NCBI RefSeq assembly: GCF_006440675.2
Contig: NZ_CP083951.1
Span: forward strand, 6,047,501 to 6,111,500
DNA from: Mesorhizobium sp. B2-8-5
GTDB lineage: Bacteria > Pseudomonadota > Alphaproteobacteria > Rhizobiales > Rhizobiaceae
Length of the DNA: 64,000 bases
Direction: 5' to 3'
The position numbers and the translations under genes were made by a program. A model generated the notes under the pieces. It searched no databases, was not told the DNA's origin, and saw only the letters and a list, made by a program, of their open reading frames with translations. Position 1 is the stretch's first letter; the number at the start of each line of letters is the position of its first letter. This document shows positions 5,071 to 47,090 of the stretch, in pieces.

Positions 5071-5313
5071 TGCCTGGCAAAGGATTTTGCCCTGGACATG
5101 GCAATTCGCCTCCGGCGGCCGCAACGCTAGTAATCCAGGGCGCGTCCCGCTGGAATCATAACGTGGGGCGTTGGCGAAGTATTTAGCCAATGGCACGGCG
5201 CCGAAGACCGAAGCTGCCCTCTCTAGCGACGGCCTTAGTCGTTTGTTTTTGGCCTTGCTTCAATGTTTTGGCCTGAAACTATTCTATTGGCAAAGTATTT
5301 GAAAGATGGGGGC

Positions 5314-6525
5314 ATGTCAGAATCTGGCGACATCTCGGTTGTCGATGCGAAGCGCTATCGTGTTGCTTCAGACAAGCCTGCCATGCCTCAGGATACGGTG
5401 ATCGACGTTAGCGTGGAGGTCTTGCAGAACATCGCGAAACTTGAGACCGATTGGAAGGAGCTCGAAGCGCGAGCAACTCACTCATTCTATCTGTCCTGGC
5501 TTTGGATCGGAACTTGGCTGCGGCATCTCCCGGCGGGGGCGCAACCCCACGTTTTAGTCGCTCGGACGTCAAGCAAGATCGTCGGCCTGGCGATTATTTG
5601 CCGGCGGAGGGCGTGGAGTTTCGGGCTGCATGCACGAGCGCGTTGGCTGCTCAATGAAACCGGAGACGTTCATTTCGATCGATTGTTCATCGAGTACAAC
5701 AATATTCTTGCGGAGCGATCCTTGGCCGATGCCACCAGGGTGGCATGCCTCGAGGCTCTGGCACATCACTTGCGCTACTCCGACCAGCTGGTGCTCTCCG
5801 GAATTGATCGGGACTTCGAATTGGCCGCTTGCCGCACCGCGGGTCGGGCTGGGTTCCTTACCGAGGTCAAAGCGGAAGATACGGCACGGTGGATTGATTT
5901 CGCCAAAGTCCGGCAGAAAGGCGGAAATTACCGCGCCACATTGGGCCGCAATACTCGCCAAGCGGTAAGCCGTGCCATGCGGTTATATGCGGAACGCGGC
6001 CCCATTGAGTTCCGGACGCTGGAAGCGACATCGGAGGCGCTCGCCGCGTTTGATTTGCTCGCCGAGCTTCATCAGGCGCGGTGGAGACACAAGGGATCCT
6101 TTGCCAATCCGAGCTTCCGTCGGTTTCACGAGGACCTCATTGCGCGCGGAGTTCCCACGGGGACCGTCCGCATCTCACGGACGCTGGCTGGGGACCAGAC
6201 AATTGGAGTCTTGTACAATTTCGTGCATGACGGCCGTGTTCTCAACTATCAAAGCGGCTTTCTGTTTGAGCGCGACGGCCGGCTCAAACCCGGGCTTGTC
6301 AGCCATGTGCTGGCCATTGAGGACAGCTTCGGACGCGGGGAGCGCGGCTACGATTTTCTGGCAGGCGCAGCCGGGCACAAGTCACACCTGGCCAATGCCG
6401 AGCATCCTTTGACGTGGATCGCAATAGGCAGAGACAGTCCAGAGCGCCGCATCGAGGCAAAGCTGCGCGGTGCCAAGCGGGTGCTAGGGACCATTGCCAC
6501 TCGCATGAGACAGGCCGCGGCTTGA
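5314..6525 (+). CDS. CelD/BcsL-type GNAT protein (Acetyltransf_6, FemAB-related)
   Basis: This is a soluble protein of about 403 residues with two GNAT-like halves. It matches the CelD/BioF2-like acyltransferase family, whose Pfam clan also holds the aminoacyl-tRNA-dependent FemAB transferases. Supporting stretches are FYLSWLWIGTWLRHL, GGNYRATLGRNTRQAVSRAM and the C-terminal LNYQSGFLFERDGRLKPGLV followed by RGYDFLAGAAGHK. Members commonly occur in polysaccharide clusters and transfer an acyl or aminoacyl group. The donor cannot be read from the sequence. The frame opens at 5263, but the ATG at 5314 follows GAAAGATGGGGG and is preferred. The unusual tRNA gene starts 121 bases downstream on the same strand. 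Confidence 0.75.
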   Translation: MSESGDISVVDAKRYRVASDKPAMPQDTVIDVSVEVLQNIAKLETDWKELEARATHSFYLSWLWIGTWLRHLPAGAQPHVLVARTSSKIVGLAIICRRRAWSFGLHARARWLLNETGDVHFDRLFIEYNNILAERSLADATRVACLEALAHHLRYSDQLVLSGIDRDFELAACRTAGRAGFLTEVKAEDTARWIDFAKVRQKGGNYRATLGRNTRQAVSRAMRLYAERGPIEFRTLEATSEALAAFDLLAELHQARWRHKGSFANPSFRRFHEDLIARGVPTGTVRISRTLAGDQTIGVLYNFVHDGRVLNYQSGFLFERDGRLKPGLVSHVLAIEDSFGRGERGYDFLAGAAGHKSHLANAEHPLTWIAIGRDSPERRIEAKLRGAKRVLGTIATRMRQAAA

Positions 6526-6646
6526 AGTGTCGAGCAAAATAGGAGTTGCCACTTTGTATCAAGTTTTTTGGGCAGGCTCTTGGACCATCGATCGGCAGGT
6601 TCGGCAGGCGAGGACAAAGGAGAGGTTGGATTTGTCTAATCTATGT

Positions 6647-6731
6647 TTCAGCGTGGCGGAATTGGTAGACGCACCGCACTGTTGATGCGACGCCGGAAGG
6701 CTTGTAGGTTCGACTCCTACCGCTGGAGCCA
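6647..6731 (+). tRNA. Class II tRNA with GUU (Asn) anticodon
   Basis: This 85-base cloverleaf can be read fully. The acceptor stem is TTCAGCG (6647-6653) with CGCTGGA (6721-6727), followed by G73 and an encoded CCA (6729-6731). The D arm is of leucine type (GGCGGAATTGGTAGACGC). The anticodon arm is CCGCA-CTGTTGA-TGCGA, giving anticodon GTT and one C-A mismatch at 27-43. A long variable arm, GCC-GGAA-GGC, and a T arm, GTAGG-TTCGACT-CCTAC, follow. Asn-tRNA is normally class I with a short variable loop. U1-A72, G73 and GUU are Asn identity features, while the body resembles tRNA-Leu. It lies between the GNAT gene and the phosphopantetheinyl transferase gene. Confidence 0.85.
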
Positions 6732-7344
6732 TAGATTCCAAGTGGCCACGTAGCCACCATGGCCGATCAATCAGTCAGAAGAGGTAATCCGAATTGGACC
6801 TTAACTGACGGTGGCATCGCAAGCGAAGCGGAGATTGCTTTGATCTGACGCATTCCGCATCCAAGTAAACTGCTCTTTGGCCAGCAGCCTTACTCGTCAG
6901 AGCAGGAGATCAATGGGGCGCGAGTTCATCGTCAAGATAGGTGTCAAGATAAGTTCGGCCGTTTCGCCTCCGAAAGACCCCTCGCGAGCAGCATATCTGG
7001 GTCTTTATAGCACATCCATACATCAAAATATCCACCAGCCGCTCCTTGCTTTCGCTCTTACGTGATTGTTTCATCGGGATTCCGCATGAACGAGCGTTCC
7101 CAGCGATCGGGATCCACGTATGACTTCTGAGTGCTGCCCCGTGCTCGACTTTATCCAATTTTCCGGCGCGGGCGGGGACGATCGCCATGGCGCATTTGGC
7201 GCGAACTGGAATTTTCACGCTGTCTCGGCTCGGCCGGGACGTCGATCAATTCGACCCAGATTCGGCGTCAGTCAGCCTCTTGTGGAGCCGGCACCGCCCC
7301 CCTCAAACTCTTTGGATAAAGTCGGGCTGAGACCCGGGATCATA
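6732..7344. other. Gap between tRNA and phosphopantetheinyl transferase gene
   Basis: No convincing gene is seen. An open frame upstream of 7345 is continuous with the transferase gene, but its translation (7120-7344) is not protein-like and is treated as leader. The region presumably carries the promoter for the downstream four-gene set. Confidence 0.4.
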
Positions 7345-7956
7345 ATGCCGGTTCTCGACAAAGATGGTTTGGAGGTCCTGGCATTCATGCTCGATGCTGA
7401 GCAGAACGTCATCCGCGAGATAGGCGTTTGCCTCAACGAAGAGGAACGTCGGCGCGCCGAGGGGTTGAGACTGGAGCCGGACCGCCGCCGCTTTGAAGCT
7501 ACCCGTGGGCTGCTGCGCCGGCTCCTCGCCTCCAAACTGGGAATCTCGCCGTCCGACATCGAACTGGAATATGGACGCCTGGGCAAACCCCACCTCTCGC
7601 ACCGCATGCCTGCTCGCGATTTGCGCTTCAGCGTCTCACGATCCGGAGATGTCGCGGTCGTCGCCCTTTCGACCAGGGAGGAGGTCGGGGTGGACATCGA
7701 GGCAGTTGTGCCGGTGCCCGAAGCGGACGAGATCGCAGCGCTCTGCTTTTCCGCCTCCGAATACGGGTCCTACACCGCCCTTGCTCCGCAAGACCGGCTG
7801 GAAGGCTTCGTCCGGCGCTGGACCCGGCTGGAGGCTATCTCCAAGGCCTTGGGATGCGGTTTAGGACAGCCCCTTTCCTGGGAGGAAAGGGATTGGGCTG
7901 TCCATAGGTTCGTACCGAAACCCGGGTACATCGGGACCGTGGCAGTCCGGAATTGA
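7345..7956 (+). CDS. 4'-phosphopantetheinyl transferase, Sfp type
   Basis: The protein (about 203 residues) is predicted to attach phosphopantetheine from CoA to the carrier domain of the A-PCP protein at 9113. Family features are LNEEERRRAEGL, the FEATRGLLRRLLA helix, the metal-binding motif VGVDIE (D117, E119) and the WTRLEAISKALG motif (E163, K167). The FNxSHSGD motif reads FSVSRSGD here, with Arg99 in place of the usual His that contacts CoA. The ATG at 7345 places the N-terminus where the family normally starts, while an in-frame ATG at 7120 would add 75 unlikely residues. A short direct duplication (AGTCCGGAATTGA) spans the stop codon. Confidence 0.85.
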   Translation: MPVLDKDGLEVLAFMLDAEQNVIREIGVCLNEEERRRAEGLRLEPDRRRFEATRGLLRRLLASKLGISPSDIELEYGRLGKPHLSHRMPARDLRFSVSRSGDVAVVALSTREEVGVDIEAVVPVPEADEIAALCFSASEYGSYTALAPQDRLEGFVRRWTRLEAISKALGCGLGQPLSWEERDWAVHRFVPKPGYIGTVAVRN

Positions 7957-8048
7957 GTGGTAGTCCGGAATTGAAATGTCGGCGATGCCATCATTCACCT
8001 ACGATGCACTGCGGATAAGCGAGGAGGTCAACCAACTCGAGAGGCCCT

Positions 8049-9077
8049 ATGTCGGCGGACTTGATGCAGATCCCGGAGCTTCTCGCAGACCTCGCGGTCA
8101 AGGACATCAAGGTCTGGGTAGAGGGCGACCGGCTGCGCTGCAACGCCCCAGTTGGCGCACTGACTGCCGAGTCTTCCGACCAGTTGCGTAACCGGAAGGG
8201 CGAAATCATCGCGTTTCTGAACATGGCCACGGCTGCAGCCCGGCAACAGCCAGCAATCATTCCCCTGCAGTCTCGCGGAACACGCACGCCCATTTATGCC
8301 GTGCCCGGGCATATCGGGGCGCCCTTCTCATTCTCGGACCTGTCGAAGCACCTGGGTGGCGATCAGCCGTTCTACGCACTCCAACCGTCTGGCTTCGATG
8401 GGCAGAGCGAACCGATGGAACGCGTCGAAGATATCGCGGAGTATTTCGCCCGCCAGATCGTCGCATATCAGCCCACCGGTCCGTACATCATCGCCGGTTA
8501 CTGCTCCGGCGCTGCAACCGCTCTCGAGCTGGCGAAAATCCTGCGTCAACGCGGAGCGGAGGTCCCGTGCATGGCGCTCTTTGGCCCCCTACACCCCATC
8601 ATCTTTAAGGAATTGCCGCGTCAGCTATATTTCTTTGCCAGTCGCACCGCCGATTCATTTCTGCGAGAGATAGCAAAGCTGCCGACATTCGGCGCTCGTC
8701 TCCGGTATTTCGGCAGGCGTCTCGGGAACCTTGGCGGGCACGTCGGCGCCCTCGTGACCCCCGTTCGCAAAAGCAAAGAGCCTGTCACGGCAGATCCGGT
8801 GCTGGCGAGCAGAGCTCGACTCAAATCCACGGCGATCACGGCTTTGCGGCGGTACATCCCCGCCCCGTATTCGGGTCGAGTATGCATATTCCTTCCGAAC
8901 AAGGCTTGGATGCGATCGGGTGCGGCGCCGCGCCAATGGCTTCGAGTGATGCCCCAAGCCGAGTTTTATTTCGGGCCCGAGGACTGCAACGATAGCCGTA
9001 TGCTGGAGGAGCCGGACGCACCTGCCATCGCAGAGCTCTATCGCCAGGCAACCCGAAGGGCTGAGCGATTGACGTGA
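8049..9077 (+). CDS. TubC docking domain plus thioesterase-like protein
   Basis: Residues 8-57 resemble the TubC N-terminal docking domain of NRPS/PKS proteins (ELLADLAVKDIKVWVEGDRL, then LRNRKGEIIAFL). The rest is an alpha/beta-hydrolase thioesterase domain with the oxyanion region IYAVPGHIG and the nucleophile elbow AGYCSGAA (Ser153). Two triad positions look altered: the strand expected to end in the catalytic Asp reads MALFGPLH, and the usual DHxxML near the end reads DCNDSRML without His. The protein may therefore be a non-hydrolytic partner or use other residues. The gene starts 92 bases after the phosphopantetheinyl transferase and ends 35 bases before the A-PCP gene, so the genes are probably co-transcribed. 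Confidence 0.8.
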   Translation: MSADLMQIPELLADLAVKDIKVWVEGDRLRCNAPVGALTAESSDQLRNRKGEIIAFLNMATAAARQQPAIIPLQSRGTRTPIYAVPGHIGAPFSFSDLSKHLGGDQPFYALQPSGFDGQSEPMERVEDIAEYFARQIVAYQPTGPYIIAGYCSGAATALELAKILRQRGAEVPCMALFGPLHPIIFKELPRQLYFFASRTADSFLREIAKLPTFGARLRYFGRRLGNLGGHVGALVTPVRKSKEPVTADPVLASRARLKSTAITALRRYIPAPYSGRVCIFLPNKAWMRSGAAPRQWLRVMPQAEFYFGPEDCNDSRMLEEPDAPAIAELYRQATRRAERLT

Positions 9078-9112
9078 TTGATTTTTGATTTCTGCAATGG
9101 AGAGCGTATCTC

Positions 9113-11134
9113 ATGAATGAAGTCCTACCTATCGTGGCGAAGGGCGTAGCACTTCCCCTGCCGAAAGATGCCGATCATCAGGCGCTGGTTGTCGAGTACA
9201 ACGCCACGGCAGCGCCCTACCCGTCGGACAGGACGGTCATCGATCTCTTCCGCGACCAGGCGAGGCGTAGTCCCAACGCCGAAGCGATCCGTTTCGGTGA
9301 CGCAATGCTGACGTACCGGCAGCTCGACGAACGCTCCAACCAGATGGCCACGCATCTAAGCTCGACCGGCGCTGGGCCAGGTCGGATTGTCGTTGTGTTC
9401 ATGGAACATTCCATTGAGGTCGTCGTCGCGATCTTGGGCGTCCTGAAGTCCGGCGCGGCCTATGTGCCGGTGGATGCGGCAACGCCCAAGGGGCGTCTCG
9501 CAACAATCCTGAAGGAAATTGCCAACGGGACCGACGGGCGGGCGCCGGTGGCGATCACACAGGCGCGCCTTCAATCCGTCATGTCCCCGAACCTTGCAGA
9601 CATTTTCGTGCTCGACGCCGATTTCGGGCCGATTTTGACTCAGCCGGACTCGGCCCGACCATCCGCTGCCACTCCGGACAGCGCCGCCTATATCATTTTC
9701 ACCTCCGGCTCGACCGGCACGCCCAAGGGCGTGGTGATCGAGCACCGGAGCCTGGTGAACTACATCTGGTGGGCCGCTCGGGTATACGGTTCCAGCGAAG
9801 GTGACGCATGGCCCCTTTTCTCATCCCTCGCCTTCGACCTGACCGTTACCACGCTCTTTACGCCACTCGTCACCGGCGGCCGCATCGTGATCTATCTCGG
9901 TGATCCCGGAGTCCAGAGCATGGTCGTGCTCAAGGTCATCGACGACAATGCCGTCGATATCATGAAGCTGACGCCGGCGCATCTCGCGATGATCCGCGAC
10001 CGCAATCTCGAGACCACAAGGCTGCGCAAGTTCATCGTGGGCGGCGAGGACTTCAAAACTGAATTGGCTCGCGATATCACGAACGCCATCCCCCACCCCA
10101 TCGAAATCTACAACGAGTACGGACCAACCGAAGCCACGGTTGGCTGCATGATTCACCGTTTCGACATCGACCGGGATCAATCCGCATCGGTGCCGATCGG
10201 CGTTCCGGCCGCCAATGCGGGCATCTACGTCCTCGACAAAGCACATCAGCCCACCGCCTCCGGCACCATCGGTGAGATGTTCATTGCCGGCGACGGTCTC
10301 GCGAGAGGCTATTTCAATCGCCTTGACCTGACCGACGAGCGTTTCCTTACGGTCCCCGATCCTCGAGATGGGTTTTCGAAGCTGCGGCTGTACAAGACGG
10401 GGGATCTCGCCCGCTGGAACTCGGAAGGGCGCCTGGACTTTCTCGGCCGCGCCGACCATCAGGTGAAGATTGGTGGCGCACGTGTCGAGCTGGGCGAGAT
10501 CGAAGCGCGGCTTCTCAAGCATCCACACGTTCAGGAATGCGCTGTCATCGCCATCGCCAACTCGACGACGACGCCAGCGACACCAACGATCGTCCAAATG
10601 GGCGATATCGAACCGCCAGCGGCCGAAGACGGCATCGCGCGACTTGTGGCTTACTATGTCTCGTCGAAACCCCTGACCGTCGCGGACCTGCGCGCGCACC
10701 TCGCCGAAGAACTCTTAGGATCCATGATTCCGACGCACTATGTCTGCCTCGAACGGATGCCGCTCACGTCCAACGGCAAGATCGACCGCTCGTCGCTTCC
10801 CGAGCCGATCGCGGAAAACTTCCAGGCTGCGCAAGAATTCGCCGCCCCGTTGACGGAGACCGAGAAGACGCTGGCCGCGCTGTGGTGCGATCTCCTTAAG
10901 GTCGAGGCAATCGGCCGTCGCGACAACTTCTTCGGTCTGGGCGGGGAATCGCTCCTGGTGATGCGGGCGGTGTCGCGCATGCGGAAGATCTTCGGCGTCG
11001 ACGTGCAGCTTCGCAACCTCTTTGAGCGCCCGACGCTCGCCGAACTGGCGGAAGTGATCGACGGAATGCGTTGGATGGCAAATTCCAAAGGCTCCCCACT
11101 CTCGGAGGGACCGAGAGAGGAGGTCGAACTCTAG
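9113..11134 (+). CDS. Free-standing NRPS A-PCP protein, predicted to load L-Asn
   Basis: This 673-residue protein has one adenylation domain and one carrier domain, with no condensation domain. The core motifs are A3 IIFTSGSTGTPKG (194-206), A5 NEYGPTE (334-340), A7 YKTGDLARW (427-435), A8 VKIGGARVELGEIE and A10 NGKID (554-558). The carrier site is FFGLGGESLL with Ser613. Alignment by eye to GrsA gives specificity residues D242, L243, T246, K285, I308, G310, E335, V343, G344 and K556, that is DLTKIGEVGK, a code typical of asparagine. It should make Asn-AMP and hold Asn as a thioester. Its likely partners are the upstream phosphopantetheinyl transferase and the downstream flavoprotein. Confidence 0.9.
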   Translation: MNEVLPIVAKGVALPLPKDADHQALVVEYNATAAPYPSDRTVIDLFRDQARRSPNAEAIRFGDAMLTYRQLDERSNQMATHLSSTGAGPGRIVVVFMEHSIEVVVAILGVLKSGAAYVPVDAATPKGRLATILKEIANGTDGRAPVAITQARLQSVMSPNLADIFVLDADFGPILTQPDSARPSAATPDSAAYIIFTSGSTGTPKGVVIEHRSLVNYIWWAARVYGSSEGDAWPLFSSLAFDLTVTTLFTPLVTGGRIVIYLGDPGVQSMVVLKVIDDNAVDIMKLTPAHLAMIRDRNLETTRLRKFIVGGEDFKTELARDITNAIPHPIEIYNEYGPTEATVGCMIHRFDIDRDQSASVPIGVPAANAGIYVLDKAHQPTASGTIGEMFIAGDGLARGYFNRLDLTDERFLTVPDPRDGFSKLRLYKTGDLARWNSEGRLDFLGRADHQVKIGGARVELGEIEARLLKHPHVQECAVIAIANSTTTPATPTIVQMGDIEPPAAEDGIARLVAYYVSSKPLTVADLRAHLAEELLGSMIPTHYVCLERMPLTSNGKIDRSSLPEPIAENFQAAQEFAAPLTETEKTLAALWCDLLKVEAIGRRDNFFGLGGESLLVMRAVSRMRKIFGVDVQLRNLFERPTLAELAEVIDGMRWMANSKGSPLSEGPREEVEL

Positions 11135-11204
11135 CTTGCCGGAATGCCCCCGACCTTGGGCACCAATCCAGGCGGTGCCCTTGCATTGGACGCATGCAGA
11201 GCGG

Positions 11205-12383
11205 ATGAAGATGATGGACAAAGCTTGGGTATCGGCACGAGAACCCGGACTGCCTTGGGTGGCGGCGGAATATGAGCTCTTGCGCGACCAAGTGCGCCGG
11301 TTCGTGGATGAGGAAATCAAGCCGTGTGCGGATCTCTGGGAAGAGAACGGATTCATTCCTCGTCCGATCCTGCGCCGCATGGGCGAACTCGGCTTCTTCG
11401 GCATCCGCTACCCTGCCGAGTACGGTGGTGCCGAGATGGACGCGGTCGCATCAACGGTCTTCGCCGAGGAGCTCGGGCGCTCGACCTATGGCGGCGTCGC
11501 CGATGCAATGCTGGTCCATGCCGACATGGCTTCCTTGTATGTCTTTCACGACGGCACCAAAGCCCAGCGGGCGCGCTGGATGCCGGGCATTATCAGCGGC
11601 GAGGTGATCACCGCGGTCGCCATAACGGAGCCGGATGCGGGCTCGGACGTGAAGGCCATCCGCACGCGTGCGCTGCGAGATGGCGACTCCTATGTGCTCG
11701 ACGGTACGAAGCTCTACATCACGAATGGCGTCCACGCGGATCTCTACTGCGTCGCAGCCAAGACTGATCCCTCGGCAGGAAGCCACGGGATCACGATGTT
11801 CCTCGTCGAAAAGGGGACGCCAGGCTTCAGTGTCGCCCGCGAGCTGGACAAGCTCGGCTGGCGCTCCTCCGATACGGCGGAGCTCGTCTTCGACGGTTGC
11901 CGCATCCCCGCCGAGAACGTGCTCGGCGCGGAGGGACAGGGCTTCTACTCCATAATGCGCAACTTCCAGAATGAGCGCCTTGTTCTTGCAGGTATGGCGA
12001 TAGGGATGGCCGAGGCCGCGATCGATATGACCCTCTCCTGGGTAAAAACGCGCCGCGCATTCGGGGGCGTCCTGTGGGACATGCAGGCGATCCGTCAACG
12101 TCTCGCGATGCTCTCTGCGAAAGTGGAGGCAAGCCGTGAGTTTCTCTATGCCACCGCTTGGCGCATGGCGGCGGACGACGACTGCCTGCGCGAAATCTCG
12201 ATGTTGAAGGCCATCTGCGGCGAACTTGTCAACGAGGTGTTGTATGCATGCGTGCAGTTCCACGGCGCTATGGGCGTTATGCGAGAGAGTCCGATCGAGC
12301 GCATAGCGCGGGATGCACGCGTCCTATCCATCGCCGGCGGCGCGACGGAGGTGATGCTGGAGGTGGTCGCGTCGTTGTCGTGA
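11205..12383 (+). CDS. Acyl-CoA dehydrogenase-like flavoprotein
   Basis: The protein has about 392 residues and the full acyl-CoA dehydrogenase fold (VAITEPDAGSDVKAIRTRA, LYITNGVHADLY, then the helical C-terminal domain). In medium-chain enzymes the catalytic Glu lies in the IYEGT motif, which here reads SIAGGATEV and lacks it. The isovaleryl-CoA-dehydrogenase position is instead occupied in NFQNERLVLAG (Glu257). Amino-acyl-carrier-protein dehydrogenases that oxidise tethered amino acids also use this position. Placed 70 bases after the A-PCP gene, it probably oxidises the tethered aminoacyl group at alpha-beta. A TTG start at 11136 is possible; the ATG at 11205 is preferred. Confidence 0.85.
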   Translation: MKMMDKAWVSAREPGLPWVAAEYELLRDQVRRFVDEEIKPCADLWEENGFIPRPILRRMGELGFFGIRYPAEYGGAEMDAVASTVFAEELGRSTYGGVADAMLVHADMASLYVFHDGTKAQRARWMPGIISGEVITAVAITEPDAGSDVKAIRTRALRDGDSYVLDGTKLYITNGVHADLYCVAAKTDPSAGSHGITMFLVEKGTPGFSVARELDKLGWRSSDTAELVFDGCRIPAENVLGAEGQGFYSIMRNFQNERLVLAGMAIGMAEAAIDMTLSWVKTRRAFGGVLWDMQAIRQRLAMLSAKVEASREFLYATAWRMAADDDCLREISMLKAICGELVNEVLYACVQFHGAMGVMRESPIERIARDARVLSIAGGATEVMLEVVASLS

Positions 12384-12714: not shown

Positions 12715-13898
12715 CACAGTACACGACTCATTGGGTTTTGATGGTCTTAGGGAAAGCGCTGAGCCATGCGGTTAGCGCGTTTTGGGGTGAGAAGTTGATC
12801 CATGCCCTGAGGGCGTCTAGTCCGATGCGGAACCATGACTTTTCGCGTCGGCCGTGGGCCTTTCGCTTGATGGCCTTCATACCCATGGTTTGGGTTGCAC
12901 ATCGATAGGCCCATGTGATTGCGATGGCGAGAATGGCTGTCAGGGTATCGATCTTGTCTGGCGCGGTCATTCTGGTGTCTTCGATGTTGAAGCCGCGGGT
13001 CTTGGCATCGCCGAACAGGCATTCGACGGCCCAACGGCTCTTGTAGGCTATGATGGCGGCCTTGGCGTCCTGGCTGTTGGTCATGACGATGAGCCATTCG
13101 CCCTGCTGGCCTTTTCTGCCGTCGATCCATTTGGCAGCGAAGGATAAACGGACGGATGCAGCCGGCAGGCCGGCCTCAAGCGTCGTGACGCTGCGGCTCT
13201 TGCGGCGCTTTCTCAGCAGGGTCTGGAGTGTCCAGAGCTTTCCATCGGCCAGGGCGACGCACTGGCCGACCTTGACGCGAATGGCAAACGGGACCTTGTT
13301 TTGCATCAGGAATTTGACCCAATCGGCGCCGATGAACTCGCGGTCGGCGAGCAGCAGTTCGATCGAAGCCGCGCCGAACAGGTCGAGATAGCGCCGCATC
13401 AACTCGATGCGCTGGTGCGTGTTGCTGTTGCCCTGGTGGTCGAGCACCGTCCACAGCAGCGGTACGCGAAAGCGTCGCGTCACGATGGCCAGCATGAGAA
13501 TGTTGATGTCCTTGCAGCCGACCTTCCAGCTGGTGCGGTCGAGCGCCAGGCATTTGGGCCGCGACAGGTTCAGCATGCGCACGACGAGCTGCGCGACGAG
13601 CGCCTGATCCAGCCGGATCGACTGGAAGAAGCGCTGCAGGCGGCGATAGTTCGACCCGTGTTGCGCGGCCCCCGGAAACTGGCTCGCCACATGGCTCAGA
13701 CTGACCGTGCGGCCTTGAACCATGCCGATGATCAGAACCGCGAGTGTTTCCAGGCGCGAATTGCGCAGTGCAAAATGACGGCTTAGGGTCTCGATGAGGG
13801 CGGTGTGAATCGTGATCGGCATCGGCGGATCCTTTTGGCGAAGAATCCTCCAATCAAATCACTTCAAGCCGTCCTCACCCTTGCGTCGTGTACTGTGG
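12715..13898 (-). mobile_element. IS4-family insertion sequence
   Basis: The terminal inverted repeats are CACAGTACACGAC (12715-12727) and GTCGTGTACTGTG (13885-13897). The flanking 8-bp direct repeat AATCCGCT occurs at 12707-12714 and 13899-13906 and is the likely target duplication. The element is about 1.18 kb and carries one transposase gene on the minus strand. Intact ends, target copies and reading frame point to a fairly recent insertion. Confidence 0.9.
12728..13822 (-). CDS. IS4-family transposase
   Basis: This is a 364-residue DDE transposase. The likely catalytic residues are Asp in CLALDRTSWKVG, Asp in LLLADREFIGADW and Glu in RWAVECLFGDAKTRGFNIED, the last being the YREK-like region of the family. 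The frame is uninterrupted and fills the element between its inverted repeats. It moves only its own element and has no role in the neighbouring pathway. Confidence 0.9.
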   Translation of the reverse strand: MPITIHTALIETLSRHFALRNSRLETLAVLIIGMVQGRTVSLSHVASQFPGAAQHGSNYRRLQRFFQSIRLDQALVAQLVVRMLNLSRPKCLALDRTSWKVGCKDINILMLAIVTRRFRVPLLWTVLDHQGNSNTHQRIELMRRYLDLFGAASIELLLADREFIGADWVKFLMQNKVPFAIRVKVGQCVALADGKLWTLQTLLRKRRKSRSVTTLEAGLPAASVRLSFAAKWIDGRKGQQGEWLIVMTNSQDAKAAIIAYKSRWAVECLFGDAKTRGFNIEDTRMTAPDKIDTLTAILAIAITWAYRCATQTMGMKAIKRKAHGRREKSWFRIGLDALRAWINFSPQNALTAWLSAFPKTIKTQ

Positions 13899-30660: not shown

Positions 30661-31638
30661 TTGGCTGAATCGCGCGCTATTTTTGTATCGGGAGTTGCGG
30701 GCTTTGTAGGAAGCAGGCTTGCAAGGATCTTTGTTGATCGTGGATATCCGGTCTTTGGCTTTGACAACCTGTCGCGCGGTTCTCGCGAGAACCTGAACGA
30801 GCTTCTCACGCATGAGAGGTTCATTTTTGAGAAAGTGGATCTCTCAGACGCGGGTGCGGTGAGAAGCCGCTTCATGAATTGTCACAAACGCATTCCGATT
30901 TCCGAAGTCTGGCACATGGCTGCCAATTCCGACATTCCTGCGGGAATCGCCGATGCCTCTGTTGATCTACGCGATACCTTTCTATCGACGTTCAACGTGT
31001 TGGACGCAATGAAGGAAGCGGGGGTTCCGTTCCTTGCTTTTGCATCCAGCTCAGCCGTGTACGGCGATTTGGGGGAGGCTCCGATTAGAGAGGATGTCGG
31101 GCCGCTGCTGCCGATTTCCAATTACGGTGCCATGAAGCTCGCGTCGGAAGCGCTAATCAGCGCTGCCGTCGAGAACTGGTTAGCTCGAGCGTTGATCTTT
31201 CGCTTTCCGAACGTGATCGGTGTCCCAGCAACCCATGGTGTCATTCTGGATTTCGTCAGAAAGTTAAGGGTTTCACCAAGCAAGCTGAATGTTTTGGGAT
31301 CGGGGCGGCAACGGAAGGCATATCTTCATGTCAATGATCTGATTGATGCGATTGTCTACTTGCGTGCAAACGCATCCGAGCGGCTTGGCTGCTACAATAT
31401 CGGTCCTGAGGACAAAGGGGTAACCGTTAGCTTTATAGCGGAAACGACTGTCGAGGCTGTCGCACCGGGCGCGGGAATCGAGTACGGATTTGAAGATCGC
31501 GGTTGGACGGGAGATGTTCCCCGATTTTCCTATGACATAGCAAAACTCCGTGCGCTCGGTTGGCGGCCCCAGCTTGGTTCGGCTGACGCTGTTCGAAAAG
31601 CCGTCGTAGAGATCGTGCGGCAGGAAGGACACCCGTGA
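30661..31638 (+). CDS. NAD-dependent epimerase/dehydratase, first gene of heptose operon
   Basis: This 325-residue extended SDR has SGVAGFVGSRLARIF at the NAD site and FASSSAVYGDLGEAP followed by SNYGAMKLASEALIS with the YxxxK pair. It resembles UDP-glucose 4-epimerase-like enzymes. The start is a TTG at 30661 preceded by GGAAGG. The stop overlaps the start of the next gene (GTGATG). Because the following genes make GDP-D-glycero-D-manno-heptose, this enzyme may convert that nucleotide sugar (dehydration or epimerisation), but this is inferred from position only. Confidence 0.82.
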   Translation: MAESRAIFVSGVAGFVGSRLARIFVDRGYPVFGFDNLSRGSRENLNELLTHERFIFEKVDLSDAGAVRSRFMNCHKRIPISEVWHMAANSDIPAGIADASVDLRDTFLSTFNVLDAMKEAGVPFLAFASSSAVYGDLGEAPIREDVGPLLPISNYGAMKLASEALISAAVENWLARALIFRFPNVIGVPATHGVILDFVRKLRVSPSKLNVLGSGRQRKAYLHVNDLIDAIVYLRANASERLGCYNIGPEDKGVTVSFIAETTVEAVAPGAGIEYGFEDRGWTGDVPRFSYDIAKLRALGWRPQLGSADAVRKAVVEIVRQEGHP

Positions 31639-33566
31639 TGCAGGCCCAGGCCGTTGTACTTGCGGGTGGTCGAGGGACGCGGCTCAGGGGCCGGATAGGT
31701 GATTTGCCTAAGTCGTTGGCCAGCATTGGTGGCAAGCCACTTCTTGAGCATCAAATCGTCCTCGCCAAGCAACACGGGATTGAGAGGATCTTGATCCTGG
31801 TGAACCACGCAGCCGAGCAAATCGTGGAGTTTTGCAATCAGCGCAAAAATTGGGGGATTGACGTTCGTTGCATAGATGACGGTGCGCCGCTTGGGACAGC
31901 TGGGGCAGTTTTGGCCGTTTTGGATCTGCTCGACGACGACTTCCTTACGATCTACGGCGACACGATGCTCGACATCGATCTGACCCGCTTTAAGTGCTTC
32001 CATGAAAAGCACAAGGCGGCGGCGGCAACCGTTTTCACCCATCCGAATGATCACCCACATGATTCCGATCTGATAGAAACGTCGGAAGACGGCGTGGTTA
32101 CCGCGTTCCATCCATATCCACGCGACCCAGATTGCTATTATCCAAACAAAGTCAGCGCGGCTCTTTACTACATTCGAAAACAAGCTCTTCTCCGTTGGCG
32201 CGCGGCAGCAACTCCGCTCGATTTCGGCAAGGACCTGTTTCCCGAAATGCTTCGGGCCGGCGCGGAAATCAGAAGTTATGGCAGCCCCGAGTACATAAAA
32301 GACGCGGGAACTCCGGCGAGACTCGACAAGGTTTGCGCCGACTTTGAATCGGGCCTCATAGCACGGGCTTCACTCACCTCTCCGCAGAAAGCAGTCTTTT
32401 TGGACAGGGATGGGTGCATCAATGTTGACCATGGACACATCGATCGTCCCGAACGCTTCGAACTGATTGAGGGGGCCGCGGCCGCGATCGCCAGTTTCAA
32501 CCGGGCCGAATACCGGACAATCGTCGTCACTAACCAACCCGTTGTGGCGAGGGGCGATTGCTCTGTACGAGACTTGCGGATGATCCATAACAAGATGGAG
32601 ACTGAGCTTGGCCGCCGTGCAGCTTTTGTCGATGCCATCTATTTCTGCCCGCACCATCCAGACCGCGGCTTTATCGGTGAGGTGGAAGCGCTGAAGGTCC
32701 GCTGCAATTGTCGCAAACCTTCTACCGGGTTGGTTGATGAGGCGGTCCAAACATTCAATATCGATCGCAGTCAGTCCTGGATCATCGGCGATTCCTCTAC
32801 GGACGTTGCTCTCGCAAAACGATCTGGCATCAGATCGATCCTGGTCGAGACGGGCGCAGGCGGGTTGGACAGCAAGTATCATGTAATGCCCGATTATACC
32901 GTCTCGGACTTGTTCGAGGCTGCCAAGTTCATTCTCACTGGTCACCCGATCTTGATAGACACAGCATCTGATCTGATCGCGCATGTGAAGCCGGGGGACG
33001 TCTGTTTCGTGGGGGGCCTTTCCCGGAGCGGAAAGAGCGTCCTTTCCAGCGCCATCGCGGAGGTTCTTCGCGGGCGCGGCTTTGATGCGCAGGTCGTTGC
33101 TCTTGATCGCTGGATACGGTCCGTCGCCAATCGCGAACCAACGGTGATGGGTCGCTATGATGTGAGCGAGATCAGGAAGGTTCTAAGCCGCTTGGTGGGA
33201 GTTCGTTCTCGCGAGACGCACGATCTGCCCTACTACGAAAAGCTGGGCCGCGTATCGCATCCGAAATCAGAAAAGATAACTATTTCTCCGGAAACCGTCC
33301 TGATCGTGGAAGGGGCCGTCGCTCTCTCGCTCTCCGATGTGGTTTTGCCCAGTCGTGCACACACGTTCTTCGTCGATATCGATGAGGAGCTGAGGAGGTG
33401 CCGAGTAACGCGAGAATACTCGCGGCGAGGTGTGGATCGAGAGGCTGCAGCGAGTATCTACCGTTCGCGCCAGGAGGATGAGGCACCGATCGTGCTGGCA
33501 TCGCGAACGAGTGCCAATCATTGCGTCCGATTGCGGGCGATCGAGCTGATTGAGGCGGTCGGATGA
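31638..33566 (+). CDS. Fused heptose-1-P guanylyltransferase / heptose bisphosphatase / P-loop kinase
   Basis: Three domains lie in about 642 residues. Residues 1-235 are an HddC-type nucleotidyltransferase (VVLAGGRGTRL, LPKSLASIGGKPLLEHQI, YGDTMLDID). Residues 250-430 are a GmhB-type HAD phosphatase with motif VFLDRDGCINVD and the zinc-type cysteines of CPHHPDRG and VRCNCRKPSTGL. Residues 450-642 are a P-loop kinase with Walker A GGLSRSGKS and a uridine-kinase-like tail. The first two give successive steps from heptose 1,7-bisphosphate to GDP-heptose. The substrate of the kinase domain is unknown. The ATG at 31638 follows AGGAAGGA. The operon continues with hddA and gmhA. Confidence 0.85.
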   Translation: MQAQAVVLAGGRGTRLRGRIGDLPKSLASIGGKPLLEHQIVLAKQHGIERILILVNHAAEQIVEFCNQRKNWGIDVRCIDDGAPLGTAGAVLAVLDLLDDDFLTIYGDTMLDIDLTRFKCFHEKHKAAAATVFTHPNDHPHDSDLIETSEDGVVTAFHPYPRDPDCYYPNKVSAALYYIRKQALLRWRAAATPLDFGKDLFPEMLRAGAEIRSYGSPEYIKDAGTPARLDKVCADFESGLIARASLTSPQKAVFLDRDGCINVDHGHIDRPERFELIEGAAAAIASFNRAEYRTIVVTNQPVVARGDCSVRDLRMIHNKMETELGRRAAFVDAIYFCPHHPDRGFIGEVEALKVRCNCRKPSTGLVDEAVQTFNIDRSQSWIIGDSSTDVALAKRSGIRSILVETGAGGLDSKYHVMPDYTVSDLFEAAKFILTGHPILIDTASDLIAHVKPGDVCFVGGLSRSGKSVLSSAIAEVLRGRGFDAQVVALDRWIRSVANREPTVMGRYDVSEIRKVLSRLVGVRSRETHDLPYYEKLGRVSHPKSEKITISPETVLIVEGAVALSLSDVVLPSRAHTFFVDIDEELRRCRVTREYSRRGVDREAAASIYRSRQEDEAPIVLASRTSANHCVRLRAIELIEAVG

Positions 33567-34564
33567 TTATCAGTCAGACGCCACTTCGAGTCAGCTTTGT
33601 CGGAGGTGGCAGCGATCTTCCTGCCTTCTATCGGCAGGAGGGTGGCGCCGTCCTAAGCGTTGCGATCGACAAGTACGTTTACGTTAACGTGAACCGTAAG
33701 TTCGATAACGGCACTCGAATCGCCTACTCGAAAACAGAAGAGGTAGAGAGCGTCGAGAATATCCAGCACCCAATTGTAAGAGCTACGATGGAATACCTCG
33801 GGATTCGCGGAGGTGTCGAGATAACAACCATCGCCGATATTCCATCGATGGGAACAGGACTTGGATCATCGAGCTCTTTTACTGTTGGCCTTCTGCATGC
33901 GCTGAACGCGTTTCGGGGGCAGTATGTTTCGAAGGCAAAGCTCGGTGCTGACAGTTGTTGCATAGAGATCGAACGTTGTGGCGCGCCCATTGGAAGGCAA
34001 GATCAATACGCGGCCGCCTTCGGCGGGTTGAATCTTATCGAGTTTCACTCTGATGATCGCGTCTCGGTGTCGCCGCTAATATGCCCACGTGATTTTATCG
34101 CTTCCATCGAGAAGCAAGTTCTTGTGTTTTACACCGGCATGACGCGCAGCGCGTCAGACATTCTCGTCCGACAATCGGAGGGCATCGCAAGGGCACCGGA
34201 CAAGCGAAAAGCGCTGAGGCAGATGGTCGAGCTCACGTACCGCCTTCGTGATGAACTGCATCGATGTAACCTCAACGCCTTCGGCGAAATCCTCCACGAG
34301 AACTGGCTCTTAAAAAAGAGCCTCTCCGAAGAAATCACGAACGATGCGATCGATGGCTGGTACCGAGCTGCGTTACGGGCAGGTGCCACGGGCGGCAAGC
34401 TACTCGGAGCAGGCGCAGGAGGTTTTCTCCTGTTCTTCGCGCCTCTCGACCGCCACGACGCAATCAAAGTGGCTCTCGGGGAGCTAAAGCACTTTCCTGT
34501 GAAGTTTGACTTCGCCGGTAGTCGCATCGTTCATTATCAACCAACATCGGAGGCCACCCAATGA
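33563..34564 (+). CDS. hddA: D-glycero-D-manno-heptose 7-phosphate kinase (GHMP family)
   Basis: This 333-residue GHMP kinase has RVSFVGGGSDLPAFY at the start, the ATP loop GTGLGSSSSFTVGLLHAL and the C-terminal AGATGGKLLGAGAGGFLLFF. HddA phosphorylates the anomeric position of heptose 7-phosphate, giving the 1,7-bisphosphate that the GmhB-like domain of the previous gene dephosphorylates. The ATG overlaps the previous stop by four bases, and its own stop overlaps the gmhA start, so the three genes form one translationally coupled unit. Sugar kinases for fucose look similar, but the neighbours favour heptose. Confidence 0.88.
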   Translation: MIISQTPLRVSFVGGGSDLPAFYRQEGGAVLSVAIDKYVYVNVNRKFDNGTRIAYSKTEEVESVENIQHPIVRATMEYLGIRGGVEITTIADIPSMGTGLGSSSSFTVGLLHALNAFRGQYVSKAKLGADSCCIEIERCGAPIGRQDQYAAAFGGLNLIEFHSDDRVSVSPLICPRDFIASIEKQVLVFYTGMTRSASDILVRQSEGIARAPDKRKALRQMVELTYRLRDELHRCNLNAFGEILHENWLLKKSLSEEITNDAIDGWYRAALRAGATGGKLLGAGAGGFLLFFAPLDRHDAIKVALGELKHFPVKFDFAGSRIVHYQPTSEATQ

Positions 34565-35265
34565 AACATTTTGGCGGCAGTGCTCAATCAACCGACATCC
34601 GAGCCAACCCAAAAAATCTTGACGGCAGCGCTCAAGCTTATTTCAAGAAACTTGAGATCGTCCTGGCTTCGTTGGACCACCAAAGCTTCGATAATGCGGT
34701 GGCCTTGGTCGCGCAGGCACAAGAGGACGGCAAGCAGATAATCACGCTTGGAAATGGTGGCAGTTCACTCACGGCGCTACATTTCATTACGGACTGGAAT
34801 AAGAGCATCTATCTCTCTACGAAGCTTCCTTTTCGTGGCCGAACGCTGGTCGACAATGTGGGCCTCACATTCGCGTACGCGAACGATGTTTCTTTCCAAG
34901 ATGTGTTCGTCGAGCAGCTGAAGAACATCCTGAACGAGGGCGACCTGGTTATCGCAATTTCGGGAAGCGGAAACTCAGAAAACGTTTTGCGCGCCGTTCG
35001 ATACGCCAATGATCATGGCGCAGTTACGTTAGGGCTTTGTGGATATGGCGGAGGAACACTCCGGCAGATCGCCCAACACGTGGTTTGGGTCAATGTGAAT
35101 GACATGCAACTAGCGGAAGATATACATTCTATGTTCGGGCATGTCGTTATGCAGCGTCTTTGTTCTGCAAGTACACAGAAGTGGAGCGATCGGCGACAAC
35201 AGCGCCGCGCTGCTGGAGGTCTCAATACAAATGGAACTGGCGCCGAGACGAACTGGCAATCCTGA
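34561..35265 (+). CDS. gmhA: Sedoheptulose 7-phosphate isomerase (SIS domain)
   Basis: The protein (234 residues) has a SIS domain with IITLGNGGSSLTALHFITDW and VIAISGSGNSENVLRAVRYA, and the zinc/catalytic region DMQLAEDIHSMFGHVVMQRL typical of GmhA. It makes heptose 7-phosphate, the first committed step. The last 30 residues (from about ASTQKW) lie beyond the usual end of the family. The first 25 residues are an imperfect copy of sequence around the start codon: a roughly 50-bp tandem duplication covers about 34539-34640, so the true start may lie in either copy. Confidence 0.87.
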   Translation: MKHFGGSAQSTDIRANPKNLDGSAQAYFKKLEIVLASLDHQSFDNAVALVAQAQEDGKQIITLGNGGSSLTALHFITDWNKSIYLSTKLPFRGRTLVDNVGLTFAYANDVSFQDVFVEQLKNILNEGDLVIAISGSGNSENVLRAVRYANDHGAVTLGLCGYGGGTLRQIAQHVVWVNVNDMQLAEDIHSMFGHVVMQRLCSASTQKWSDRRQQRRAAGGLNTNGTGAETNWQS

Positions 35266-39158: not shown

Positions 39159-41801
39159 ATGGCGATGCAGAACGAGAATGCCCACGCCGCAGACTTTGGA
39201 TTTCGAGCCTTGGCTCTGTTCCTTCGCTTTCATGGCGTAAACGCTAAGCCCGACCAGATCCGCGATCGCTGTGGCGGCGGCGGTGCAATCGGCATCCGCG
39301 CGATGCTTCGTTGCGCCCGAGAGTTCGGGCTTAAGGTCGGTTCGCGCAAGACACGGTGGAAACAACTTGCGGGTATCCGGTTGCCCGGCATCGCTTCACT
39401 GCATGATGGCGGATTTCTGCTTCTCGGAAAGGTCAGCGACAAAGGCGCGGTTGTGCTGCATCCGCCCTCGTCAAATGCGAAGCTGATCACCCGCGCGGAA
39501 TTCGAAGCAATCTGGGACGGCCGTTTGATCTTGGCTGGATCACAGAACATTGCGCAGCGGGCGCTTCATGCCCTTATTGGCCGTGGGCGTGATCTGGCAC
39601 GGCGCGCCTGCGATATCTTGATGCGTGCTCGTTTCGCCGATCGAGGCGATAAGGCCGCCCAGGCGGCGAGCACTGCATCTGAGAGCGGCGATGACTCAGG
39701 GCTCATCGCCTTGGCGATATTGCTGCGTTGCCATGGCATCGCGGCCGAGCCGGACCAAATCCGGCATCGCATGGGCGCGGCGCGAGTGGGTGTTACCGAA
39801 GTCCTGCGCTGTGCAAAGGATTTCGGACTCAAGGCTCGGGCACAGAGGACGAGCTGGAATCGGCTTGCGGTTACTCCGCTGCCGGGAATCGCCGTGCTTC
39901 GGGACGGTGGATTCCTGATCCTCGGCAAAGTCGTCGATGACAAGCTCCTCGTTCAGCGCCCATCGTCGCCGCAACCCATTACAATGACCCGGGCCGAACT
40001 TGAGTCCATCTGGGACGGCGACATCATCCTGATGACCCGGCGCGCAGCCCTGACGGACCTGTCCCGTCGGTTTGACATCGGCTGGTTTCTCGGCGCGGTT
40101 CACAAGTACCGCCATCTTCTCGGCGAAGTGCTGATCGCGTCATTCTTCCTTCAGATCTTTGCCCTCATCTCGCCGCTGTTCTTCCAGGTGGTCATCGACA
40201 AGGTGCTCGTGCATCGAAGCATGAGCACGCTCGACGTCCTGGTCGCGGGCCTTATCGCGCTGACCGTTTTCGAAACTGTTCTCGGCACGCTGCGCGTCTA
40301 TCTGTTCGCGCACACGACGAACCGCATCGACGTCGAGCTCGGCGCCCGGCTGTTTCGTCACCTGATGGCGTTGCCGATCGCATATTTCCAGACACGCCGC
40401 GTCGGGGATTCAGTCGCACGCGTCCGCGAGCTCGAGAATATCCGGCAGTTCCTGACGAGCTCGGCGCTCACGCTTGTCATCGATCTCGTCTTCACCGTCG
40501 TTTTCATTGCGGTGATGTTCTATTACACGACTCCGTTGACGCTGATCGTCCTGTCGTCGTTCCCATTCTACATCGGCATTTCTGCGGGAGCTGCGCCGCT
40601 GTTTCGCCGGCGCCTTGATGAGAAGTTCGATCGCGGCTCGGAGAATCAAGCTTTCCTGGTCGAGACCGTCACGGGCGTCGAGACGTTGAAGGCCATGGCG
40701 GTCGAGCCGCAGATGCAGCGCCGCTGGGAGGAGCAGCTCGCCGCCTATGTGACCGCAAGCTTCCGCGTGCTCAGCCTGAACAATACGGCGAGCCAGGCGG
40801 TGCAGATGATCAACAAGCTGGTCGTCGCCGCAACCCTTTACTTCGGCGCCAAGCTCGTGATCGGCGGCGACCTGACCGTCGGCGAACTCGTCGCATTCAA
40901 TATGCTGGCCGCGCGCGTGAGCATGCCTGTGCTGCGGCTCGCGCAGATCTGGCAGGATTTCCATCAGGCCCGCCTGTCGATCGATCGTCTCGGCGATATC
41001 CTCAACACCATTCCCGAGCCAAGCTTCAATCCTGGCCGCGCCGCACTGCCGGCGATCCGCGGGCAGGTGACATTCGAGCACGCGACTTTCCGCTACCGAG
41101 TCGACGGCCCCGAGGTGCTGCACGATGTATCGTTCAGCGTCGAGTCCGGTCAGGTCATCGGCATCGTGGGCTCCTCGGGCTCCGGCAAGAGCACCATCGC
41201 CAAGCTGATACAGCGGCTCTATGTGCCGGAGAGTGGACGCGTGCTGGTCGATGGCGTCGATCTGGCGATGGTCGACCTAACCTGGCTTCGACGCCAGATC
41301 GGCGTAGTCTTGCAAGAGAACGTGCTCTTCAACCGATCCATTCGCGAGAACATCGCGCTCGCTGATCCGGCTATGCCCATGGAGCGCGTCATTGCAGCGG
41401 CCTCGCTTGCCGGCGCTCACGATTTCATCCTGGAGCTGCCCGAGGGCTATGACACCATCGTGGGCGAACGCGGCAGCAGTCTTTCCGGCGGGCAACGCCA
41501 GCGTGTCGCAATCGCCCGGGCACTCATTACCGATCCGCGCATCCTCATCCTCGATGAGGCGACCAGCGCCCTGGATTACGAAAGCGAGCGCGCCATTCAG
41601 CAGAACATGAAACGAATTTCTGCCGGCCGAACCGTCTTCGTCATCGCTCATCGGCTCTCGACCGTGCGCCACGCGAACCGGATCATCACGATCGAGCATG
41701 GACGCATCGTCGAGGATGGCACCCATGATGACCTAATCCGCTCGAACGGGCGCTACGCAAACCTCCACTATCTGCAAGCTGGCATCCATGACGTCCGCTA
41801 G
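39159..41801 (+). CDS. Type I secretion ABC transporter with two degenerate C39-like domains
   Basis: This 880-residue HlyB/PrtD-type exporter probably exports the GH16 enzyme upstream. Residues 5-125 and 175-295 are two copies of a C39-like domain: ADFGFRALALFLRFHG and SGLIALAILLRCHG stand where the catalytic Cys motif (DCGxACLA) would be, and FLLLGKV/FLILGKV where the His is expected. The copies are thus binding, not cutting, domains, as in HlyB. Five to six membrane helices follow (310-580), then the ATPase: Walker A GIVGSSGSGKSTIAKL, signature LSGGQRQRVAIARAL, Walker B ILILDEATSALD. The start follows a GAAGGG-type site. The stop overlaps the hlyD-type gene by 14 bases. Confidence 0.9.
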   Translation: MAMQNENAHAADFGFRALALFLRFHGVNAKPDQIRDRCGGGGAIGIRAMLRCAREFGLKVGSRKTRWKQLAGIRLPGIASLHDGGFLLLGKVSDKGAVVLHPPSSNAKLITRAEFEAIWDGRLILAGSQNIAQRALHALIGRGRDLARRACDILMRARFADRGDKAAQAASTASESGDDSGLIALAILLRCHGIAAEPDQIRHRMGAARVGVTEVLRCAKDFGLKARAQRTSWNRLAVTPLPGIAVLRDGGFLILGKVVDDKLLVQRPSSPQPITMTRAELESIWDGDIILMTRRAALTDLSRRFDIGWFLGAVHKYRHLLGEVLIASFFLQIFALISPLFFQVVIDKVLVHRSMSTLDVLVAGLIALTVFETVLGTLRVYLFAHTTNRIDVELGARLFRHLMALPIAYFQTRRVGDSVARVRELENIRQFLTSSALTLVIDLVFTVVFIAVMFYYTTPLTLIVLSSFPFYIGISAGAAPLFRRRLDEKFDRGSENQAFLVETVTGVETLKAMAVEPQMQRRWEEQLAAYVTASFRVLSLNNTASQAVQMINKLVVAATLYFGAKLVIGGDLTVGELVAFNMLAARVSMPVLRLAQIWQDFHQARLSIDRLGDILNTIPEPSFNPGRAALPAIRGQVTFEHATFRYRVDGPEVLHDVSFSVESGQVIGIVGSSGSGKSTIAKLIQRLYVPESGRVLVDGVDLAMVDLTWLRRQIGVVLQENVLFNRSIRENIALADPAMPMERVIAAASLAGAHDFILELPEGYDTIVGERGSSLSGGQRQRVAIARALITDPRILILDEATSALDYESERAIQQNMKRISAGRTVFVIAHRLSTVRHANRIITIEHGRIVEDGTHDDLIRSNGRYANLHYLQAGIHDVR

Positions 41802-46731: not shown

Positions 46732-46808
46732 TGGTACCGTTGGCTGGGATCGAACCAGCGACCTCCGGATCCACAATCCGGCGCTCTAACCAGCTGAGCT
46801 ACAACGGC
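46732..46808 (-). tRNA. tRNA-His (GTG)
   Basis: The minus-strand sequence GCCGTTGTAGCTCAGCTGG opens the gene. The anticodon arm holds GATTGTGGAT with GTG, the T arm is GCTGG-TTCGATC-CCAGC, and CCA is encoded. The acceptor stem has a G1-U72 pair and A73, with no G-1 to pair with, which fits the alphaproteobacterial form of this tRNA. Its 3' end faces the accessory region, the orientation typical of integration targets. Confidence 0.95.
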
Positions 46809-46953
46809 ACGCCTGCCTGAGTTGGATCGAGGAAGCTTCTTTCTCCGCGATCCGCTCTGTCGTTCGGCGATGCGTCAAATACGGGCTATCGGATTCTAAT
46901 TCAAGGGCTTTGATAAGGGAAAGGACGGGTTTCCTCATCCGCCGCCGTCAAGG

Positions 46954-47090
46954 CAAAAGAAAAGGCCGGCGGGAGGAGGTGCCGGCCTTTTCCTGTTACG
47001 AGCCAGCGGGAGGAGGTGCTGGCTGGTCACCCCGGAAATGGAGGGAGGAGGTTCCATCCCCGGGTATCTGGTTGTTCAACCCTATCGCAC
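46954..47090 (-). ncRNA. Putative regulatory RNA with anti-Shine-Dalgarno loops (MmgR-like)
   Basis: Three consecutive hairpins carry the same 10-base loop. In minus-strand order it is ACCTCCTCCC each time: loops at 47043-47052, 47008-47017 and 46971-46980. The last stem (GCCGGC pairs) is followed on the minus strand by TTTTCTTTTG, a good intrinsic terminator. A fourth small hairpin (GGTTG/CAACC) lies at about 47070. CCUCCUCCC loops are a hallmark of several alphaproteobacterial small RNA families that bind Shine-Dalgarno sequences, among them MmgR (alpha-r8), linked to PHB storage. It lies in the 3' region of phaP on the same strand. It may be an independent RNA or a processed 3' UTR; the 5' end is not fixed. 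Confidence 0.6.

Follow-up and report, generated by a model that had tools for sequence, protein, structure and literature searches.

In this study, we have analysed a 64,000-nt stretch of the genome of Mesorhizobium sp. B2-8-5 (the window; NZ_CP083951.1, 6,047,501–6,111,500, from a single contig of 6.46 Mb; coordinates are window-relative unless another locus, L, is named), in which a class II tRNA-Asn gene (6647–6731, + strand) lies within a cassette of putative asparagine-tailoring genes. Our best explanation, to which we give slightly less than an even chance, is that this is a dedicated tRNA-Asn replacing the asparagine synthetase AsnB as the asparagine source of the locus. It builds on the presence of the tRNA, its structural conservation and identity elements, its co-occurrence with the cassette, the absence of asparaginyl-tRNA synthetase (AsnRS) over the cut-off, and the lack of overlap with AsnB of the Escherichia coli type. 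Gene and tRNA calls together with Pfam place six features on the + strand between 5263 and 12383, as an initial annotation of this DNA had claimed: a FemX-like tandem GNAT gene, the tRNA, a phosphopantetheinyl transferase (PPTase), a docking-domain thioesterase-like protein, a stand-alone protein with an adenylation (A) and a peptidyl carrier protein (PCP) domain, here called A-PCP, and an acyl-CoA dehydrogenase family protein. That annotation had interpreted the whole as an asparagine-dedicated locus, which our results support in part; they lend no support to its further suggestion that the product is perhaps joined to polysaccharide.

The tRNA was called by ARAGORN as tRNA-Asn with anticodon gtt and matched Rfam RF00005 at 45.9 bits (cut-off 29), and its 85 nt, three-pair variable stem and leucine-type D-arm make it class II; it carries a genome-encoded CCA end. 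As its folding energy was no better than that of shuffles (z 0.21), the fold is set apart from shuffles by covariation and not by energy. The class II tRNA covaries like a working tRNA: across 13 such tRNAs (10 distinct) from Mesorhizobium and Microvirga, 97.4% of 230 cells were paired, a level reached in none of 500 shuffles, and structures slid from their position gave far lower pairing than the true fold. Two-sided changes occurred at 8 of 23 pairs, a result matched by 68 of the 500 shuffles; the number of pair types was reached by all 500, and the other three covariation measures by none. Between Mesorhizobium and Microvirga, both bases differ in four of the seven acceptor pairs. Over its whole length the window tRNA is 70–73% identical to those of Microvirga, 65% to its own genome's tRNA-Leu(tag) and 60% to its own tRNA-Asn; the genome holds an ordinary class I tRNA-Asn as well as tRNA-Leu genes sharing the same D-arm.

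The anticodon GUU (G34 U35 U36), G73 and the U1-A72 pair are invariant in all 13 tRNAs. The relevant passages of two sources (PMC9976931, PMC4206432) give G73 with G34 U35 U36 (A37) as the bacterial asparagine identity set, leucine requiring A73, and describe U1-A72 as the mark of tRNA-Asn for the amidotransferase GatCAB. Besides the U1-A72 pair, the tRNAs share with GatCAB substrates the absence of U20a (the D-loop reads by eye as A20a). They depart from ordinary tRNA-Asn, with its class I body, short variable loop and A37, in having a variable stem and A37 in only two of 13 cases; position 37 is otherwise G in ten and C in one, and one tRNA has A at position 33. Non-A37 in 11 of the 13, plus one A33, is unusual for a tRNA that reads AAC/AAU, and is suggestive of a role apart from translation.

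The distribution of the tRNA was followed with a pattern (leucine-type D-arm plus GTT anticodon) that was verified on the loci and the window before the genomes were scanned; it occurs once in the window and in none of 100 shuffles. Only one of 397 genomes sampled from the order has it, the own genome. Comparison of gene neighbourhoods across Rhizobiales showed the core of PPTase, thioesterase-like and dehydrogenase genes to be conserved; the tRNA pattern was found in eight of the 23 named cassette genomes (three Mesorhizobium, five Microvirga). ARAGORN detected the tRNA in four of the 23 loci, the difference arising because it lies on another contig in four Microvirga (G201, G203, G204, G205). 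All four Mesorhizobium with the cassette have the tRNA. Among 48 Microvirga genomes, nine carry the tRNA and eight the cassette A-PCP (at least 76% identity); 19 match A-PCP at E 1e-60, those without the cassette being at most 42% identical. The tRNA is present in all eight Microvirga with the cassette and in one of the 40 without it (Fisher 2.4e-8, a value that ignores relatedness). It stands 1.7 kb upstream of the PPTase gene in G202 (L055), 0.3 kb downstream of the dehydrogenase gene in G591, about 24 kb from the cassette in G574 and 2.3 Mb from it in G568. Elsewhere, no full-length tRNA match was found among the matches listed, in order of E, for 60 other genomes of the own genus, and a plasmid search gave no match covering more than 41% of the query; ARAGORN, applied to 21 of the 29 best partial matches in the genus and the order (L031–L038 left out), showed the matched gene to be a tRNA-Leu every time. 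In the one cassette-free Microvirga, G598, the tRNA (L188, 1887–1971) sits among ordinary genes near a transposase-like frame. In three Microvirga loci (L118, L121, L185) the tRNA is surrounded by a polysaccharide cluster that includes GNAT-like genes and encodes a sugar transferase and a Wzy_C protein, to which L118 adds an A-PCP-thioesterase protein.

Outside Mesorhizobium, the closest relative of the window tRNA is of viral origin: a class II tRNA-Asn(GUU) of Brevundimonas phage Kikimora (L069, 1497–1580) is 83% identical to it over the whole length. Pseudomonas phage Milchi (L070, 1490–1576) encodes another, and 15 of 38 matching IMG/VR stretches (L071–L108) also have one. Like the window gene, these have a leucine-type body with GUU and mostly U1-A72 and G73; unlike it, they stand in arrays with other tRNAs as neighbours and no biosynthetic cassette. 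It can be argued from this likeness that the window tRNA came from a phage and works in translation as an ordinary second tRNA-Asn, or that it is a neutral passenger, moved with the cassette by shared ancestry or horizontal transfer. That the Microvirga cassettes form one clade in the A-PCP tree, and that G598 has the tRNA without the cassette, would fit such a history, whereas the rarity of the tRNA in the order set against its occurrence, in scattered places, in every cassette-bearing Microvirga, the class I tRNA-Asn already in the genome and the odd bases at positions 33 and 37 speak against it; we regard this account as doubtful, though it deserves serious weight.

The case for a dedicated tRNA that replaces AsnB comes from the asparagine supply of the cassette genomes. 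In 28 genomes (12 cassette genomes with the tRNA, 15 without it, plus G598), AsnRS over the cut-off was found in none, against 7 of 14 controls; a weak partial match, which we read as aspartyl-tRNA synthetase (AspRS), is present in 27, and the G193 assembly has none. E. coli-type AsnB (NF006949) was over the cut-off in 10 of the 15 tRNA-lacking versus 0 of the 12 tRNA-bearing cassette genomes (Fisher 3.6e-4, again ignoring relatedness), and it was not found in G598. In eight of the ten it lies within about 15 kb of A-PCP (G186, G191, G193, G194, G195, G196, G199 and G208, the distance in G195 being taken from coordinates with the same contig assumed), whereas G192 has it on a separate contig of 12.6 kb and G200 on a contig other than that of A-PCP; in L046 and L049 it comes straight after the dehydrogenase gene. 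According to the pertinent part of PMC4206432, where AsnRS is missing asparagine is made by AspRS and GatCAB on a U1-A72 tRNA, there the ordinary tRNA-Asn of translation, unlike the second tRNA tied to a cassette described here. Since asparagine is made on tRNA in bacteria without AsnRS, the class II tRNA could do the job that the linked AsnB does in Bradyrhizobiaceae.

Several observations weigh against this proposal. The split between tRNA and AsnB coincides with bacterial families, and the A-PCP tree (built with insert columns retained) needs as few as two changes of the tRNA label, so that few independent events underlie the pattern. Five cassette genomes carry neither the tRNA nor AsnB. 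Putative AsnB-family genes of the exopolysaccharide type are found next to the cassette in three tRNA-bearing Microvirga loci (L056, L183, L187) and in L060, and the two that were scanned both exceeded the TIGR01536 cut-off; the absence of AsnB from tRNA-bearing cassette genomes is therefore limited to the E. coli type. The searches for asparagine supply covered AsnRS and AsnB. The pair A51-U63, associated with weak EF-Tu binding, is present in Mesorhizobium and absent in Microvirga. Among 17 phage class II tRNA-Asn, five have U37 and two A33, and it is because these also vary at positions 33 and 37 that the anticodon-loop argument is only suggestive.

The same co-occurrence might be explained by self-protection, in which the product or a related toxin hits ordinary tRNA-Asn, or the charging of that tRNA, while the class II tRNA serves as a spare that is not sensitive to it. 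The tRNA does accompany the producer genes in trans and phages carry the same kind of tRNA, as such a role would lead one to expect; with no toxicity known, 15 of the 23 named cassette genomes without the tRNA by pattern, and AsnB an odd choice of resistance gene, we consider it improbable.

What the tRNA would supply is a conserved cassette centred on A-PCP (9113–11134, + strand; AMP-binding, E 2.9e-75; PP-binding, E 1.7e-14). Homologues at 72–92% identity were found in 23 named Rhizobiales loci, all of which have the PPTase and thioesterase-like genes and 22 the dehydrogenase gene, the exception, L067, being cut by a contig end. The asparagine code announced by the initial annotation was recovered: with positions placed via GrsA motifs, it reads DLTKIGEVGK and is identical in 24 of 24 A-PCP proteins (window, 21 named loci, L183 and L187; the count omits L053, with a split frame, L067, and L184, whose gene is interrupted). 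The same code is listed in the relevant part of PMC12283262 for the albicidin asparagine/cyanoalanine domain, together with its large insertion. A-PCP is thus predicted to load L-Asn.

In ten of these 24 proteins, from seven Microvirga, one Mesorhizobium and two Bradyrhizobium, a PP-loop domain of 320 residues with the motif SGGKDSS is inserted late in the A domain. The two inserts scanned matched TIGR03573 (E 6e-40 and 2e-41), though neither reached the family cut-off; a reading of the insert as a methyltransferase was dropped, as its own sequence and NCBIfam point to a PP-loop domain. By description, the predicted PP-loop insert corresponds in place and kind to the AMDH domain of CysH (cystobactamid) and AlbIV (albicidin). 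According to PMC7966384, AMDH converts carrier-bound asparagine to beta-cyanoalanine or has a role in isoasparagine formation, and CysH without AMDH keeps asparagine. The window A-PCP has no AMDH-like PP-loop insert, only a scar at its site (10559–10633, + strand, by-eye sequence comparison), where a short stretch resembles by eye both insert ends and points to natural loss of the insert. It reads as a deletion form of the CysH/AlbIV-type asparagine module rather than a full member. The locus shares with those systems a free-standing asparagine A-PCP, the code (that of albicidin), the insert in ten relatives and a candidate CysB-like shuttle protein; it differs in the loss of the insert from the window copy, in having an acyl-CoA dehydrogenase, a PPTase and a tRNA or AsnB, and in that no large assembly line was seen beside the cassette. 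A-insert-PCP proteins extend well beyond Rhizobiales, at 60–66% identity among the best 120 matches. No A-PCP above 39% identity at E 1e-100 was found in 60 other genomes of the own genus, and no cassette above 43% identity among the matches listed in the plasmid search. In L184 (7550–11888, genome G574), a transposase-like frame lies between the pieces of the interrupted A-insert-PCP gene.

The accessory genes named by the initial annotation were confirmed. The PPTase (7120–7956, + strand, start uncertain) matches ACPS (E 1e-13) and AASDHPPT_N (E 1.2e-9). The thioesterase-like protein (8049–9077, + strand) combines a TubC docking domain (TubC_N, E 5.5e-19) with a Thioesterase domain (E 6.2e-17) and has cysteine at the nucleophile position in a GYCSG motif kept in all 27 loci examined. 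The aminoacyl shuttles SyrC, CmaE and CysB, which are alpha/beta hydrolases, also have cysteine there, and the protein may be an acyl shuttle like CysB. The dehydrogenase (11136–12383, + strand; Acyl-CoA_dh_1, E 1.7e-41) carries a motif, NERLVL, found in 26 of 26 loci examined, which we take to hold the glutamate of the isovaleryl-CoA dehydrogenase (IVD) type; against the prolyl-PCP dehydrogenase family of the RedW type (NF045652) it scored 243.8 bits, far below the cut-off of 650.

The FemAB relationship claimed for the GNAT (5263–6525, + strand; PF13480, E 2.5e-27; start uncertain, 5314 being an inner ATG in the same frame) stands as regards the tandem GNAT fold of FemABX proteins and the PF13480 match, and falls as regards Pfam FemAB (PF02388), to which there was no match: with a threshold of E 0.001 Pfam gave PF13480 only, and NCBIfam gave no match at 0.01. 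In structural alignments it is 8–14% identical to the FemABX-type aminoacyl-tRNA transferases VlmA, PacB and Sba18. Two of its lysines, Lys342 and Lys373, never vary (44 of 44); the catalytic lysine of FemX is Lys305. The GNAT gene adjoins the tRNA in three of four Mesorhizobium loci: in the window and L040 the tRNA comes immediately after it, in L041 the tRNA overlaps the end of the GNAT frame, and in L051 the tRNA is 2.8 kb further on. A homologue stands tail-to-tail with AsnB in five of five Bradyrhizobium regions examined, and both arrangements speak for our preferred explanation. The stretch between GNAT and tRNA in L051 (3843–6489) encodes a flavin-dependent oxidoreductase and a second protein, whose match to carbamoyl-phosphate synthase is weak.

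In a rival reading the GNAT alone uses the tRNA, moving asparagine from class II Asn-tRNA to an acceptor as FemX, VlmA, PacB and Sba18 do with their substrates, while A-PCP makes a separate asparagine unit and the AsnB pattern is a family-level coincidence. Homologous GNAT genes without the tRNA (L039, L052 and the five AsnB regions) count against it, as does the lack of any match to the GNAT profile in ten Microvirga stretches or the Microvirga loci scanned, where other PF13480 proteins are present. We think it rather unlikely, and its share is the same one counted for the GNAT branch within our preferred explanation of a dedicated tRNA.

Other features of the window lie around this block. 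A polysaccharide-export gene precedes it, and an IS4-family transposase gene (12728–13822, − strand) stands directly past the dehydrogenase; among named genomes, the closest synteny is shown by the Mesorhizobium loci L040 and L041. A search with the sigma-70 consensus only found no promoter- or terminator-like sites around the tRNA. Farther along, 30661–35265 resembles by eye a nucleotide-heptose pathway (epimerase, fused nucleotidyltransferase, sugar kinase, SIS isomerase), the ABC transporter and HlyD-type genes at 39159–43212 have N-termini that look similar by eye to those of the AsnB/GNAT neighbours in L196–L200, and a tRNA-His adjoins an ar14 small RNA at 46732–47070.

All together, we interpret the locus as an asparagine tailoring block of the CysH/AlbIV kind that includes a dehydrogenase. 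The PPTase would prime the carrier, A-PCP would load L-Asn, the dehydrogenase would probably desaturate Asn-S-PCP and the cysteine thioesterase-like protein would hand the acyl group on. With no AsnRS, asparagine would be formed on the tRNA by AspRS and GatCAB, and the class II tRNA, dedicated and largely non-translational, would feed the locus with it. We infer that the tRNA is charged with asparagine, which is then released or transferred to its consumer: it may reach the A domain, a branch that we hold tentatively and well below even chance, or, less probably still, the FemX-like GNAT may use Asn-tRNA directly. A precedent for reserving an additional isoacceptor for non-ribosomal purposes is the non-proteinogenic tRNA-Gly of Staphylococcus aureus, as far as the relevant part of PMC4052509 describes it; the window tRNA differs in its class II leucine-type body, its predicted asparagine specificity and its place beside a biosynthetic locus, and tRNAs of its kind have the weak-EF-Tu pair only in Mesorhizobium. 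A review of natural-product FemABX enzymes (PMC12945691) does not mention "tRNA gene", "dedicated" or "isoacceptor", and our search of open-licence papers found no description of this combination of tRNA and asparagine module.

In its fullest form, the proposal is that the tRNA of the locus acts as its asparagine synthetase: where AsnRS and E. coli-type AsnB are both lacking, asparagine would be made on a leucine-shaped, probably phage-derived tRNA-Asn and passed on to a module resembling a nonribosomal peptide synthetase or a FemX-like transferase. We put this forward as a possibility that is well short of probable. If true, a specialised-metabolite locus would be using a tRNA gene in place of a biosynthetic enzyme, and tRNA-dependent amino acid synthesis would be tied to non-ribosomal chemistry. 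It would also point to a possible function of the odd class II tRNA-Asn genes, and would show how the pathways of bacteria lacking AsnRS may obtain free asparagine.

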